38,360 nt of DNA, taken from a bacterium (lineage in GTDB: Bacteria; Cyanobacteriota; Vampirovibrionia; Gastranaerophilales; Gastranaerophilaceae). Every line of letters begins with the position of its first letter. The first letter of the stretch is position 1. Positions 3,409 to 8,425 of the stretch are shown one piece after another. Location: the NCBI GenBank assembly GCA_017941035.1, contig JAGAXG010000047.1:1-38360 (forward strand), given 5' to 3'. Both the position numbers and the translations under genes were made by a program. The notes under the pieces were generated by a model. It was not told the origin of the DNA, did not search any database, and saw only the letters and a program-made list of their open reading frames with translations.

Positions 3409-4878
3409 ATGGCAGAAGAAGTAAGAGTCAGAATTGCTCCGTCACCATCGGGGAACTTACACATAGGAACAGCTAGAACAGCTTTATTTAACTATTTATT
3501 TGCTAAAAAGAATAACGGGAAATTTATTTTAAGAATTGAAGATACTGATGCAGAAAGAACTTCTCAAGAATATATTGATAATATTTTTGACAGTTTAAAA
3601 GCATTAGGTTTGAACTGGGACGAAGGGCCTGATGTTGGAGGACCTTACGGACCTTATACACAATCTGAAAGATTTGATATTTATCCAAAATACGTTCAAC
3701 AACTTTTGGATTCAGGCTTTGCTTATGAATGTTTCTGCACCCCTGAAGAACTTGAGCAGGAGAAAAAAGAAGCTACAGAAGCAAAAAGAGCTTATGTTTA
3801 TTCTCGCAAATGCGAAAACTTAACACCAGAAGAAAAAGAAAAACTTCGAGCTGAAGGCAGAAAACCTGCAATAAGATTTAATATTGCAAAAGCCCAACGT
3901 GCATTCCACAATAGTTCTATTCTTGAATTTGAAGATATTGTAAAAGGGAAACTTCATGTTGACACAGATTTGTTGGGAGATTTTGTCATTCAAAAATCAA
4001 ACGGAGCCCCAACATATAACTTCGCTGTTGTTATAGATGATGCTCTAATGAAAATATCTCACGTTATCAGAGGAGAAGACCATATTTCAAATACATATAA
4101 ACAAATCCTTATATTTGAAGCGTTAGGATTACCTGTTCCAAAATTTGGGCATCTCGGAATGATTCTTGCTCCAGACAGAAGCAAATTATCAAAACGTCAC
4201 GGAGCTACTGCAGTTTCTGATTTTGTAAAACAAGGTTATTTAACAAATGCTTTAATTAATTTTGTTGCACTTTTAGGCTGGTCACCTTCTGACGGAGAAG
4301 AAATTAAGTCTGTTGACGAAATTGCACAAGATTTCAGAATTGGAGAAATTTCATCTTCAAATTCGATATTTGAATACGACAAGTTAAAATGGATGAATAG
4401 TCATTATATTAAAATGCTTACAATTGAAGAATTAAAAGAAAGATTAAAACCATATTTGACTAATTATCCTTTAAAAGAATTAACTGATGAACAATATACA
4501 AAAATGGTTGAAATAACAAGAGAACCGTTAACTTTATTATCAGATATAACAGATGCAGTCCCGTATTTCTTTGGTAAAGATGTTAAAATTGAGCCTGAAG
4601 CTCAAGAAAAAACACTTGATACAGAAATAGCACAAAAGGTATTAAAAGATTTTGTTGAAAAGGCAAAAAATTGGGATTGGAGTGAAGAAAATCTTCACGA
4701 AAAATTGGCAGATTTTCGTGCATACTGGAAAGAATCAGCAGGAATCAAACCAAAAGTTACTATGTGGGCCGTTCGTGCAGCGATTACAGGCAGAACCTGC
4801 GGCGCTGATATGGTAGGAATTCTTGTTATTCTTGGTAAAGAAACAAGCTTATACAGAGCGCAAAAAGCTATTAAATAA
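3409..4878 (+). CDS. gltX: Glutamyl-tRNA synthetase
   Basis: This class I aminoacyl-tRNA synthetase charges tRNA with glutamate in the cytoplasm. At 489 residues it has the usual bacterial GluRS length. The HIGH-type motif is HIGT at residues 18-21 inside RIAPSPSGNLHIGTARTALF. The KMSKS-type motif is KLSKRHG at 259-265, preceded by LAPDRS. FIHNTYK-like binding-pocket elements (RGEDHISNTYKQ, ~221-232) are present, as are Cys108 and Cys110 with Cys135, which match the zinc-binding region of many GluRS. The helical anticodon-binding domain fills residues ~330-489. The ATG follows a good ribosome site (GAAGGA). The 3' end faces the calpain-like gene with a gap of 4 nt and no clear terminator. Whether it is discriminating or also charges tRNA-Gln cannot be decided here. 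Confidence 0.97.
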   Translation: MAEEVRVRIAPSPSGNLHIGTARTALFNYLFAKKNNGKFILRIEDTDAERTSQEYIDNIFDSLKALGLNWDEGPDVGGPYGPYTQSERFDIYPKYVQQLLDSGFAYECFCTPEELEQEKKEATEAKRAYVYSRKCENLTPEEKEKLRAEGRKPAIRFNIAKAQRAFHNSSILEFEDIVKGKLHVDTDLLGDFVIQKSNGAPTYNFAVVIDDALMKISHVIRGEDHISNTYKQILIFEALGLPVPKFGHLGMILAPDRSKLSKRHGATAVSDFVKQGYLTNALINFVALLGWSPSDGEEIKSVDEIAQDFRIGEISSSNSIFEYDKLKWMNSHYIKMLTIEELKERLKPYLTNYPLKELTDEQYTKMVEITREPLTLLSDITDAVPYFFGKDVKIEPEAQEKTLDTEIAQKVLKDFVEKAKNWDWSEENLHEKLADFRAYWKESAGIKPKVTMWAVRAAITGRTCGADMVGILVILGKETSLYRAQKAIK

Positions 4879-4882
4879 TATT

Positions 4883-7006
4883 TTATAAATCATTAACATC
4901 TAGCAATTGAACACTCGTAAAGAAATTTCTAAATTCTTTCATCGAGAGTTTAATTGTCTTTGATGTGTCCCAAGGATTTATTAGAAAAACTTCCTTATTA
5001 GTAACTTTTGATATCGTATAGGCATGATGAGAATATAATTTAACTTTTTTTCCACTAAGGACATCTACAGCGAAACTATCTGATTTAACATTATCCATAA
5101 ATGGATGGGATGATGCACATGCAAGAATATTTGATTTCTTTATTTTTTCTATAATATCATCATCTATATCTCTTTGAGGATCTTCATTAAAGAATTTTTC
5201 AAAGAAGCTTCTGCCATCTTGTCCTGTTAATATTTCATAAGCTTTATATTCAAAGCCTCCTTCAATACTTGCTTTCCCTTCACCAGTCTGCCTGTATGTA
5301 TCATGCAAATATCTGTTTACAGCAATTTCAATAGCACGAACATCAGAATCACCGGTAGACAATTCTTTTGAATTTTCAATTTCTTTTCTGCTTATTTTAT
5401 ATGTTTTATCGACACCTTGAAGATGAACGATTGCATTACCATTTTTGTCTATATGTATACTGTCATTTAATATTTTTAATCCTTTAGAGCTCCGTGATAA
5501 TAGTTTAATTGAAGCTAAAAGCCAACAGTCTCCAGTATTACCTTGCTTAAAATTTTTATCTATTTTCCCGTTTAAATTATATTCAACTGCATTGTCAGCC
5601 ACATCATATCTTGCACTGAGCTTAGATACCGCAGATTTATATATATCATAAAAATTTTGATAATCTTTCGTTTCTTTTAAATTTGCTAAATCTTTATAGA
5701 ATTGAGTTTCAATTTCACTAGAATCAATTTGACTTGAACTATAGCGATATTTTTTATCATTAAAACTTCTTTTCAAAGCTCTAATTTTTTGTTCGTCTGT
5801 ATATTCATCTGACAATAAAACTGCATAATCAAAATCTATACCTGCATGTTTTTTAAATTCTTGATTTTCTTCTTCTGAAAAGTGTCCGAAGTTATCCAGA
5901 ACATAATCATCAAATTTTAAAGCAGAAGATGACTTAGATTTTAAATATTTATGAATTTTATTTATAGCAGATTCAACACTGTCTATATTATCCGCATTGT
6001 TATATTCTTTTGCAAATTGACTGATATTTATATTATTATTCTTGGCATACAAAAAAAGCTCACTACCAATAAACTTTTTAACATCCTTATAATTAAGTAA
6101 TAATTCATTGCATACCGCACGAACAAGTGATTCTTTGCCTCCTGTTAATTTTGAATATTCAGATATGACATCTACGACGTTATATTTATTTATATAATCT
6201 TGTAAATATCGCGTTGTTTTTAAATGATTACTTACACCTTGAATTTGATTATAAAGTATTTTGCTGATTTTTTTTGATTCTTGAGAGTTGAATGATGAGG
6301 CTAATCCTTTGGCAAGCACCTTCTTATTGCTTATAGCTAAATTTTGGGAAGATGCAAGTTTTTTATAATCGACTTTTGAATGAATATTTAACTTTTTTAA
6401 AATTGTCCCTTGAACATTTTCTATGAATTTTTCAACATCTGCAATATTAGAAAGTTTCATATAAGAACTGTGAAAGACACCATTTATACCATTTTGCTTG
6501 CAAAATCCAACAAGATTTGAACAAATATATTGCTTTACAGTCTTTTCATCAAGTCCCCATTCGTTATCAATAGCACGAGCAAGAGATTCTCGACCTTTTG
6601 TTAATTTTGAATATTCGTCAAGCACATAAATAACATTATGAGGAGAAATCTTTTTTAAAAGAGCAATTGTTTTTTCATTTTTACTTGGCCCGTTTATTTG
6701 AGCATATAAGAGACCGGCAAGAGCCTTTGATTGTTTTCTGAGAGATTTTTCCACTTCTGAATCATAATCATACTTCTTTGGGACTTCTACACGTTTTGAC
6801 TGAGTATTTGAATTCTTTTCAACTGCTAAACCAGCGTAAACTTTCTTGTTTGTCTGCGTTGAAATTTTCAATTTCATTCCGGCTTGAATAATATTAACAT
6901 TTTTAAGATTATTTTGCTTTGCGATTTCTTCTACTGTAGTTCCATAATTCTTCGCAATTTTAGCTAAAGTATCACCTTTATTGACTAAAATAATATTATC
7001 TGCCAT
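4883..7006 (-). CDS. LysM protein with calpain-type (C2) cysteine protease domain
   Basis: This 707-residue protein has three parts. Residues ~5-48 are a LysM domain (VNKGDTLAKIAKNYGTTVEE...), normally a peptidoglycan/glycan-binding module. Residues ~91-175 and ~245-325 are two copies of an ~80-residue helical repeat, each containing EYSKLTxGxESLxRAxxNE; their spacing is reminiscent of annexin repeats, but I cannot prove homology. Residues ~483-707 resemble the calpain catalytic core: QGNTGDCWLLASI with Cys494 and oxyanion Gln488, HAYTI with His661, and NPWD with Asn677. All three catalytic residues are in place. No signal peptide or membrane segment is visible, so export would need an unconventional route. 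Substrate and role are unknown. The gene is monocistronic and transcribed away from the sigma-28-like promoter region. The ATG is preceded by AAGGATAG. Confidence 0.85.
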   Translation of the reverse strand: MADNIILVNKGDTLAKIAKNYGTTVEEIAKQNNLKNVNIIQAGMKLKISTQTNKKVYAGLAVEKNSNTQSKRVEVPKKYDYDSEVEKSLRKQSKALAGLLYAQINGPSKNEKTIALLKKISPHNVIYVLDEYSKLTKGRESLARAIDNEWGLDEKTVKQYICSNLVGFCKQNGINGVFHSSYMKLSNIADVEKFIENVQGTILKKLNIHSKVDYKKLASSQNLAISNKKVLAKGLASSFNSQESKKISKILYNQIQGVSNHLKTTRYLQDYINKYNVVDVISEYSKLTGGKESLVRAVCNELLLNYKDVKKFIGSELFLYAKNNNINISQFAKEYNNADNIDSVESAINKIHKYLKSKSSSALKFDDYVLDNFGHFSEEENQEFKKHAGIDFDYAVLLSDEYTDEQKIRALKRSFNDKKYRYSSSQIDSSEIETQFYKDLANLKETKDYQNFYDIYKSAVSKLSARYDVADNAVEYNLNGKIDKNFKQGNTGDCWLLASIKLLSRSSKGLKILNDSIHIDKNGNAIVHLQGVDKTYKISRKEIENSKELSTGDSDVRAIEIAVNRYLHDTYRQTGEGKASIEGGFEYKAYEILTGQDGRSFFEKFFNEDPQRDIDDDIIEKIKKSNILACASSHPFMDNVKSDSFAVDVLSGKKVKLYSHHAYTISKVTNKEVFLINPWDTSKTIKLSMKEFRNFFTSVQLLDVNDL

Positions 7007-7118
7007 ATCTCTATCCTTTTACATGATTATAATATGCCTTATTCATCGACACAGAAATTTAAAACTTTAGAAATCAAATTAAAATGTAAATATTTGTAAA
7101 CTTTTAAAATAAACTTAC

Positions 7119-7489: not shown

Positions 7490-8425
7490 ATGAGCGAATT
7501 TAGACATTACACAGTAATGAAAAACGAAGCAGTCGATGCTCTTGAATGCAAAAACGGGAAAATTTATGTTGATTGCACCCTCGGAGGAGGAGGGCATAGT
7601 GAGCTTATTCTGCAAAAGATTTCTCCTGACGGGAGATTAATATCTTTTGATATTGATCAAGACGCTATTGATGCGTCTGCAAAAAGGCTAAAAGATTACA
7701 AAAACTTAACAATTGTAAAAGATTCTTATACAAATATTAAGAAAGTTTTAAAAAAGTTAAATATTGAAAAAATTACTGGGGGAGTCCTTTTTGATTTAGG
7801 GGCTTCATATCATCAATTAACAAAGCAAGAACGCGGATTTTCTTTTATGAAAGAAGCACCTCTTGATATGAGATTCAACAAAGAAGCGGATTTTAGCGCT
7901 TATGATGTTATAAATTCTTATAAAGAAGAAGAACTTGTAAAAATATTTTCAGAATACGGAGAAGAACGATTTTCAAAACGAATTGCGCATGAAATATTAA
8001 ACAGAAGAAAACAAAAAGCAATCACCACTACAACAGAGCTTGCAAATCTAATCATCAATGCAACTCCGCATATAAAAAGCAAAGTTCACCCTGCAACAAG
8101 GGTTTTTCAGGCTGTAAGAATAGAAGTAAATCAAGAGTTAAAAAATGTTAAAAACACATTAACTGATGTATTGGATTTATTAGACTTTGGTGCTATAATA
8201 AGTGTCATAAGTTTTCATTCACTTGAAGATAGGATAGTAAAACAGTTATTCAAATTTCATTCAGCAAAATGCCATTGTGACAAAACGCAGGCTATTTGCA
8301 ATTGTCCACCTCCAATACTTGAATTGGTAAACCGAAAACCTATAATGGCATCCGAAAAAGAAATTCAAGAAAATCCACCTTCAAGAAGTGCAAAATTAAG
8401 AATTGCAAGGTTTATAAAAAAGTAG
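7490..8425 (+). CDS. rsmH: 16S rRNA m4C1402 methyltransferase RsmH (MraW)
   Basis: This SAM-dependent enzyme N4-methylates C1402 in the decoding centre of 16S rRNA. The 311-residue length is normal. The N-terminus HYTVMKNEAVDAL matches the family start. The SAM site is DCTLGGGGHSELIL (~residues 27-40). DLGASYHQLTKQERGFSF, PLDMRF and the C-terminal VISFHSLEDRIVKQLF are all family hallmarks. It is followed after only 4 nt by an FtsL-like gene, the usual order at the start of a division/cell-wall (dcw) cluster. Here, however, the remaining mur genes sit about 7 kb away on the other strand. Confidence 0.96.
   Translation: MSEFRHYTVMKNEAVDALECKNGKIYVDCTLGGGGHSELILQKISPDGRLISFDIDQDAIDASAKRLKDYKNLTIVKDSYTNIKKVLKKLNIEKITGGVLFDLGASYHQLTKQERGFSFMKEAPLDMRFNKEADFSAYDVINSYKEEELVKIFSEYGEERFSKRIAHEILNRRKQKAITTTTELANLIINATPHIKSKVHPATRVFQAVRIEVNQELKNVKNTLTDVLDLLDFGAIISVISFHSLEDRIVKQLFKFHSAKCHCDKTQAICNCPPPILELVNRKPIMASEKEIQENPPSRSAKLRIARFIKK

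Follow-up and report, generated by a model that had tools for sequence, protein, structure and literature searches.

The 38,360-nucleotide stretch analyzed here (the window; contig JAGAXG010000047.1 of a Gastranaerophilaceae genome) carries a gene at 4883-7006 on the minus strand that encodes a protein in which a LysM domain, two units with strong but indirect homology to annexin repeats and a calpain-family protease domain are joined in a single chain. Our computations establish the protein's domains, catalytic residues and annexin homology, its missing signal and the modular make-up of the family across the clade, and we give roughly even chances to the view that the protein is a modular calpain-family protease that is exported without a Sec signal and held at the envelope or membrane by its LysM domain and annexin-like units. 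The open reading frame is intact, with an ATG start in a stop-to-stop frame of 711 codons, and AAAGGAT lies directly upstream of the ATG at 7013-7019. The features of the gene are as follows.

4883..7006, minus strand: coding sequence, 707 amino acids, with LysM domain, annexin-like unit 1, annexin-like unit 2, linker and calpain-family protease in that order
6863..6985, minus strand: LysM domain, residues 8-48, at the extreme N-terminus and without a preceding signal peptide (Pfam PF01476, 4.5e-14)
6392..6748, minus strand: annexin-like unit 1, a predicted five-helix annexin repeat with a C-terminal hairpin; GPSKNE (residues 106-111) replaces GxGTDE, and Glu149 is at the Ca-ligand position
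5933..6295, minus strand: annexin-like unit 2; GVSNHL (residues 257-262) replaces GxGTDE, and Glu301 is at the Ca-ligand position
5642..5932, minus strand: linker joining unit 2 to the protease; part of it aligns with the region ahead of the protease in a relative
4904..5641, minus strand: calpain (C2) protease domain, residues 456-701, from Pfam, alignment and PDB profile search
5525..5527, minus strand: predicted catalytic Cys494 in QGNTGDCWLL, with Gln488 six residues earlier (Cys in 49 and Gln in 48 of 51 domains)
5024..5026, minus strand: predicted catalytic His661 in HHAYT (His in 48 of 51 domains)
4976..4978, minus strand: predicted catalytic Asn677 in LINPWD (Asn in 43 of 51 domains)

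Calpain homology of the protease is firm at the sequence level. Pfam Peptidase_C2 covers residues 475-679 (2.5e-9; 37.1 bits against a cut-off of 23.8), and, when a profile of 22 calpain domains was searched against PDB sequences, 19 of the 20 matches were calpains, the best at 1.9e-10. An initial reading of the DNA by a model without database searches (the sequence-only reading) had called the protein a calpain-like protease with a LysM domain and had placed the catalytic residues at Gln488, Cys494, His661 and Asn677; both assignments hold, the four positions are exactly as it gave them, and the LysM match scores 52.6 bits against a Pfam cut-off of 20.9. Cys494, His661 and Asn677 are conserved throughout the 22-row alignment of calpain domains. 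Further, Gly480 and Glu560 are retained, and Asn485 stands at a column that holds Asp in 16 of 51 calpain domains; we take these three positions to be ligands of calcium site 1 of calpains. Because the single-sequence AlphaFold model of the protease part has a mean predicted local distance difference test score (pLDDT) of only 44.6, the papain-like core is predicted from sequence alone. The nearest calpain domains to that of the window protein are those of the relatives L002-L006, at 39-44% identity, and residues 270-694 align to a relative in genome G020. A scan of genome contigs with the entire protein as query returned a single locus, a LysM match in an alphaproteobacterial metagenome-assembled genome. 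The linker had no family match, and no Pfam match to the CIII/CBSW or penta-EF-hand domains was found in the window protein, indicating that it is not a classical calpain. Ours is the one calpain-family gene found in its genome (1.8 Mb, 98% complete).

Relation of the repeated units to annexins

The two units are related to each other: unit 1 retrieves unit 2 with an E-value of 6.6e-16, a figure that holds just for a small local set of some 45 proteins. The sequence-only reading had described two repeats of about 80 residues reminiscent of annexins, at residues 91-175 and 245-325. The repeats are real, but the units extend further, from about residue 87 to 205 and from about 238 to 358, since each includes a helical hairpin at its C-terminal end; the resemblance to annexins is now backed as homology by sequence profiles, intermediate sequences and a predicted fold.

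The sequence evidence comes from four profiles: A1, made from twelve such units and including L044, which was first spotted by a Pfam annexin search; A5, the ten units closest to the window's own; A7, nine strictly calpain-borne units, without L044 and the hydrolase-borne units; and A2, nine repeats from relatives that satisfy, or come close to satisfying, the Pfam annexin model. When A1 was searched against the PDB, the best 30 rows were all annexins or annexin fusions, with a top E-value of 4.9e-7 and the first other row at 0.14, and the six top rows for A5 were all annexins, at E-values from 0.015 to 0.21. A2 itself matches PDB annexins at 2e-77, and hhalign aligned A1 and A5 to A2 over the same columns at 1e-12 and 3.5e-9. 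The mean score of the A2 rows was 17.1 bits with A5 and 18.9 bits with A7, whereas 60 column-permuted profiles of each reached at most 1.9 and 1.6 bits. Pfam annexin matches occur in five of the twelve members of A1 (best 7.9e-4), window unit 1 being among the unmatched, and a single chain of a relative, L095:2582-5497, has both a Pfam calpain match (1.9e-6) and a Pfam annexin match that is below the cut-off (2.3e-4). Because direct significance is weak for the window-type and calpain-only profiles, A5 and A7, the link to annexins is carried by intermediates.

The predicted structure agrees. In the single-sequence AlphaFold model of residues 79-370 (mean pLDDT 64, about 75-85 in unit 1), each unit has five helices. 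Annexin entries fill rows 1-24 of a Foldseek search against the PDB, although the best E-value is 9.3e-3 and none is under 0.001. A second aligner superposed unit 1 on annexin repeats with Z-scores of about 7-8 and a root-mean-square deviation of 2.0-2.8 Å over 77-79 residues, and all 50 of its 50 rows were annexins, annexin fusions, giardins or astrotactin-2; giardins belong to the annexins, and astrotactin-2 has an annexin-like domain. Z-scores of this size come easily to helical repeats, but here the sequence evidence agrees with them. The model thus predicts the five-helix annexin repeat fold in unit 1 and, less certainly, in unit 2. The window protein has two units and lacks a four-repeat annexin core; we note that L095:2582-5497, from genome G122, has four units in one chain.

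Two simpler accounts of the repeats were rejected. A mere internal duplication belonging to no known family is ruled out by the annexin matches of A1 and A2, the Foldseek result and the superposition. A recent duplication of one unit into the other is at odds with a FastTree tree of the repeats, admittedly a quick one with a support of 0.60, in which unit 1 is nearer to a repeat of L093 (0.73) than to unit 2 (2.13). Overall, we conclude that the sequence profiles and the predicted fold make a strong, if indirect, case that the window repeats are diverged annexin repeats.

A modular family within the order

At E ≤ 1e-4, a 128-position profile of the unit (A3) matches 166 of the 286 genomes in the order, of which 163 belong to the same family as the window. 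Across the phylum, 104 of 339 genomes match, every one from that family. The sequence-only reading had considered the combination unusual, which holds for the published work that we found but not inside this bacterial family, where it is common. In the window's own genome, three proteins bear the unit. The product of the window gene has two units; a paralogue at L111:5219-7909 (G000:C32) consists of LysM, unit, Amidase_3 and Phage_lysozyme domains and is without a signal; and a second paralogue at L112:4168-5385 (G000:C44; 405 residues) has a canonical GIGTD in its C-terminal part. A unit near the C-terminus recurs in the relatives L061, L069, L070, L080 and L087.

We collected 93 non-redundant proteins, a non-random sample drawn from loci picked by query matches: 31 with unit and calpain, 45 with the unit only and 17 with calpain only. 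Among the 62 of 76 unit-bearing proteins covered by a Pfam tally (13 very long ones and L039 were excluded), the domains found were Peptidase_C2 (27), LysM (13), EF-hand_7 (9), Amidase_3 (7), Phage_lysozyme (4) and SLT (1). All 20 units with a G-x-PTT motif are calpain-borne, and the window units are of the other type. In a quick tree, four of the five units nearest to window unit 1 are on calpain-free proteins; as the window calpain is near those of L002-L006 but unit 1 is mostly near the units of calpain-free proteins, these comparisons suggest that modules have been recombined.

Some relatives are arranged differently. In G122, L095 63-2039 and 2582-5497 are neighbouring genes on opposite strands, each with an annexin-like unit plus calpain; the 3357-residue product of L130 202-10272 contains a pair of calpain domains as well as an EF-hand loop; and L096 809-5917 encodes 1703 residues that include LysM and FHA (4.8e-8) domains besides the unit.

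Calcium-related motifs vary across the units. Of 83 units, nine contain GxG[T/S], and no calpain-borne unit is among these nine. The acidic position that provides a calcium ligand in annexins is occupied by Asp or Glu in 79 of the 83, window units included. Asn at the Asn124 column, found in 82 of 83 units, is a hallmark of the clade, partly by construction as the search profiles contained it. A canonical EF-hand loop near the N-terminus was found in 8 of the 31 unit-plus-calpain proteins (0.10 expected by shuffling), in 8 of the 45 with the unit only (0.04 expected) and in 2 of the 17 with calpain only (0.06 expected); there is none in the window protein. The eight that combine unit, calpain and N-terminal EF-hand loop are L060, L064, L065, L066, L085, L099, L104 and L127.

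Cellular location and route of export

The sequence-only reading had seen no secretion signal, and the hydrophobicity values agree. The window protein has no N-terminal hydrophobic stretch, its 12-residue Kyte-Doolittle maximum being 0.59 compared with 1.85-3.02 in three signal-bearing controls from its own genome. Among the 72 unit-bearing proteins whose N-terminus is complete, a single one (L126, whose start is probably over-extended) scored at least 1.6 on this scale, and the median was 0.32. Cell wall hydrolases without a signal must exit the cell by another way, and it is because no signal is seen by hydrophobicity that we infer export independent of Sec. LysM, which would bind cell wall glycan, two diverged annexin repeats and the protease are arranged in that order on a modular chassis of the bacterial family, one that elsewhere, and in the window's own genome as well, has amidase, lysozyme or transglycosylase-like domains where the protease stands here. 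Under the reading that we favour, either lysis or a dedicated export system would take the protein out of the cytoplasm. Its LysM domain and annexin-like units would then anchor it to an envelope or membrane, whether the producer's own or that of a different cell, and the enzyme at its C-terminus would cleave there. Export, membrane docking, enzyme activity and the target of the window protein are thus putative.

Several observations weigh against this reading. The window protein has no match to Pfam annexin (PF00191), and the top match of the A7 profile, annexin A8, falls short of significance (E 0.1). The type II motif GxGT is absent from both window units, which have GPSK and GVSN, and a calcium or membrane function is therefore only putative. 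A full-length relative of exactly this layout was not found in the other 97 genomes. Lastly, a hydrophobicity test differs from a signal-peptide predictor.

The protein might instead remain in the cytoplasm, its LysM domain binding a small molecule or polymer inside the cell and its annexin-like units docking to the cytoplasmic side of the membrane of its own cell, much as in eukaryotic calpains. This would fit the absence of both a signal peptide and a transmembrane-like stretch (19-residue Kyte-Doolittle maximum 0.68), and the single genomic copy among housekeeping-like genes; of the flanking genes, the plus-strand one that ends at 4878 is presumably gltX-like, and the one that starts at 7490 is presumably rsmH-like. 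LysM domains also occur in cytosolic proteins, such as E. coli Kbp. We nevertheless regard a cytoplasmic protease as unlikely, although worth keeping in mind, as the same chassis in the same genome bears Amidase_3 and lysozyme domains, which would have no substrate there. Storage in the cytoplasm followed by release on lysis, in the manner of phage endolysins or some bacteriocins, would likewise account for the missing signal peptides, and in PHROGs the LysM and lysozyme parts match endolysins and tail lysozymes. Those matches are confined to the shared LysM and lysozyme domains, however, the window protein matched none of 50,697 phage records, and endolysins, to our knowledge, do not typically carry EF-hand or annexin-like modules; we consider release by lysis quite improbable. 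A PADLOC search gave no match.

A further rival concerns the repeats themselves, which could be a five-helix bundle that has converged on the annexin shape. The modest E-values of the strict profiles (0.015 for A5 and 0.1 for A7) and the lack of Pfam matches for the window units fit such a bundle, and helical bundles easily reach middling Z-scores. Yet the clade has intermediates that satisfy the Pfam annexin model and whose alignment spans the same columns, the column-permuted profiles fall far below the real ones and the Foldseek list is filled by annexin entries, which together leave convergence with very little probability.

If the favoured reading of a protease exported without Sec is taken further, one candidate route is a flagellum-like apparatus. 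Flagellin had no match in the window's own genome or in 44 of 45 other genomes of the genus, the exception being G014, with 6% contamination. FliE-, FliF-, FliH- and FHIPEP-family genes are nevertheless clustered in the own genome (L137 5435-11321, G000:C43), and rod-protein genes are found at a separate place (L135 12353-14660, G000:C39). The own FHIPEP protein is 70% and 38% identical to the two of G066, a genome from another family of the order, and reaches neither the FlhA nor the SctV cut-off of NCBIfam. In G066, the FHIPEP gene with 38% identity adjoins genes whose sequences resemble flhB, fliR and fliP. As the own type coexists in G066 with a canonical FlhA-like one, it points to a second system and not simply to a decayed flagellum. 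Incomplete flagellar gene sets in Gastranaerophilales have been interpreted, in two papers, as motility loss (PMC4040986; PMC5877343). It is conceivable, though we think it rather doubtful, that these signal-less proteins, in which calpain, amidase or lysozyme domains accompany LysM, EF-hand and annexin-like modules, serve as substrates of a second, filament-less, flagellum-like type III apparatus kept after flagellum loss, and that they act as effectors docking on host, protist or neighbour-cell membranes. Genome G035 (99% complete) speaks against the link, since it has the unit and its best FHIPEP match is of a short type only (2.8e-48). The contractile-sheath gene PF04984 was not found in the own genome within that Pfam model's reach, which counts against one injection route. 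If the type III proposal is true, these proteins would be an unrecognised effector repertoire with eukaryote-like calcium and membrane modules. Separately, we note that L134 1075-2547 (G000:C39:149540-150559) has the C-terminal FHIPEP part only (profile positions 316-655 of 657) with a different N-terminal part, and that similar short FHIPEP proteins are present in many relatives.

Comparison with known systems

The window protein shares with eukaryotic calpains the catalytic domain and the idea of attaching calcium or membrane modules to a protease, but differs from them in that annexin-like repeats would replace the membrane module and that CIII/CBSW and penta-EF-hand domains were not found in it. 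Modular polymorphic toxins and LysM cell wall hydrolases combine interchangeable C-terminal enzymes with shared N-terminal modules, and the family resembles them in its swapped C-terminal enzymes. Unlike polymorphic toxins, it showed no known toxin trafficking module in our searches, which did not extend to immunity genes.

As in bacterial calpains (PMC4631099; PMC9380684), the protein has a Peptidase_C2 core with Cys, His and Asn and the oxyanion-hole Gln, is non-classical and belongs to a family with varied partners. The partners published for bacterial calpains include PPC, WXG100, CARDB and hemolysin-type domains, among others, and the main texts of these two papers do not mention annexin or LysM; both are likewise unmentioned in the text of a 2026 calpain review (PMC13413365). 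Further, bacterial calpain homologues are described as free of EF-hands in the part of Rawlings 2015 that treats them (PMC4631099), unlike the 8 of 31 unit-plus-calpain proteins here. Bacterial annexins amount to about thirty proteins from 17 species, with metalloprotease, lipase and toxin fusions, and their account does not name cyanobacteria in its relevant sections (Kodavali et al. 2014, PMC3894181). They have in common with our units that diverged repeats are fused to enzymes and that GxGTD is partly missing in some, but those sections give neither calpain nor LysM as partners, whereas the units described here are clade-wide and occur with calpain and cell wall hydrolases.

We found no description in the open-licence literature of a calpain, annexin-repeat and LysM fusion, or of a calpain in Gastranaerophilales. 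For the literature found, then, bacterial annexin fusions and bacterial calpain fusions were known separately, and what is new is that both are joined with LysM in one family. Calpains and annexins are hallmark calcium and membrane families of eukaryotes and are usually separate proteins; that diverged annexin repeats, EF-hands and calpains appear repeatedly in one chain, with the enzymes swapped, indicates that such an assembly is possible outside eukaryotes. The family raises the question of how its many signal-less cell wall enzymes reach their substrate and offers specific proteins with which to explore whether annexin repeats originated as a docking or delivery module.
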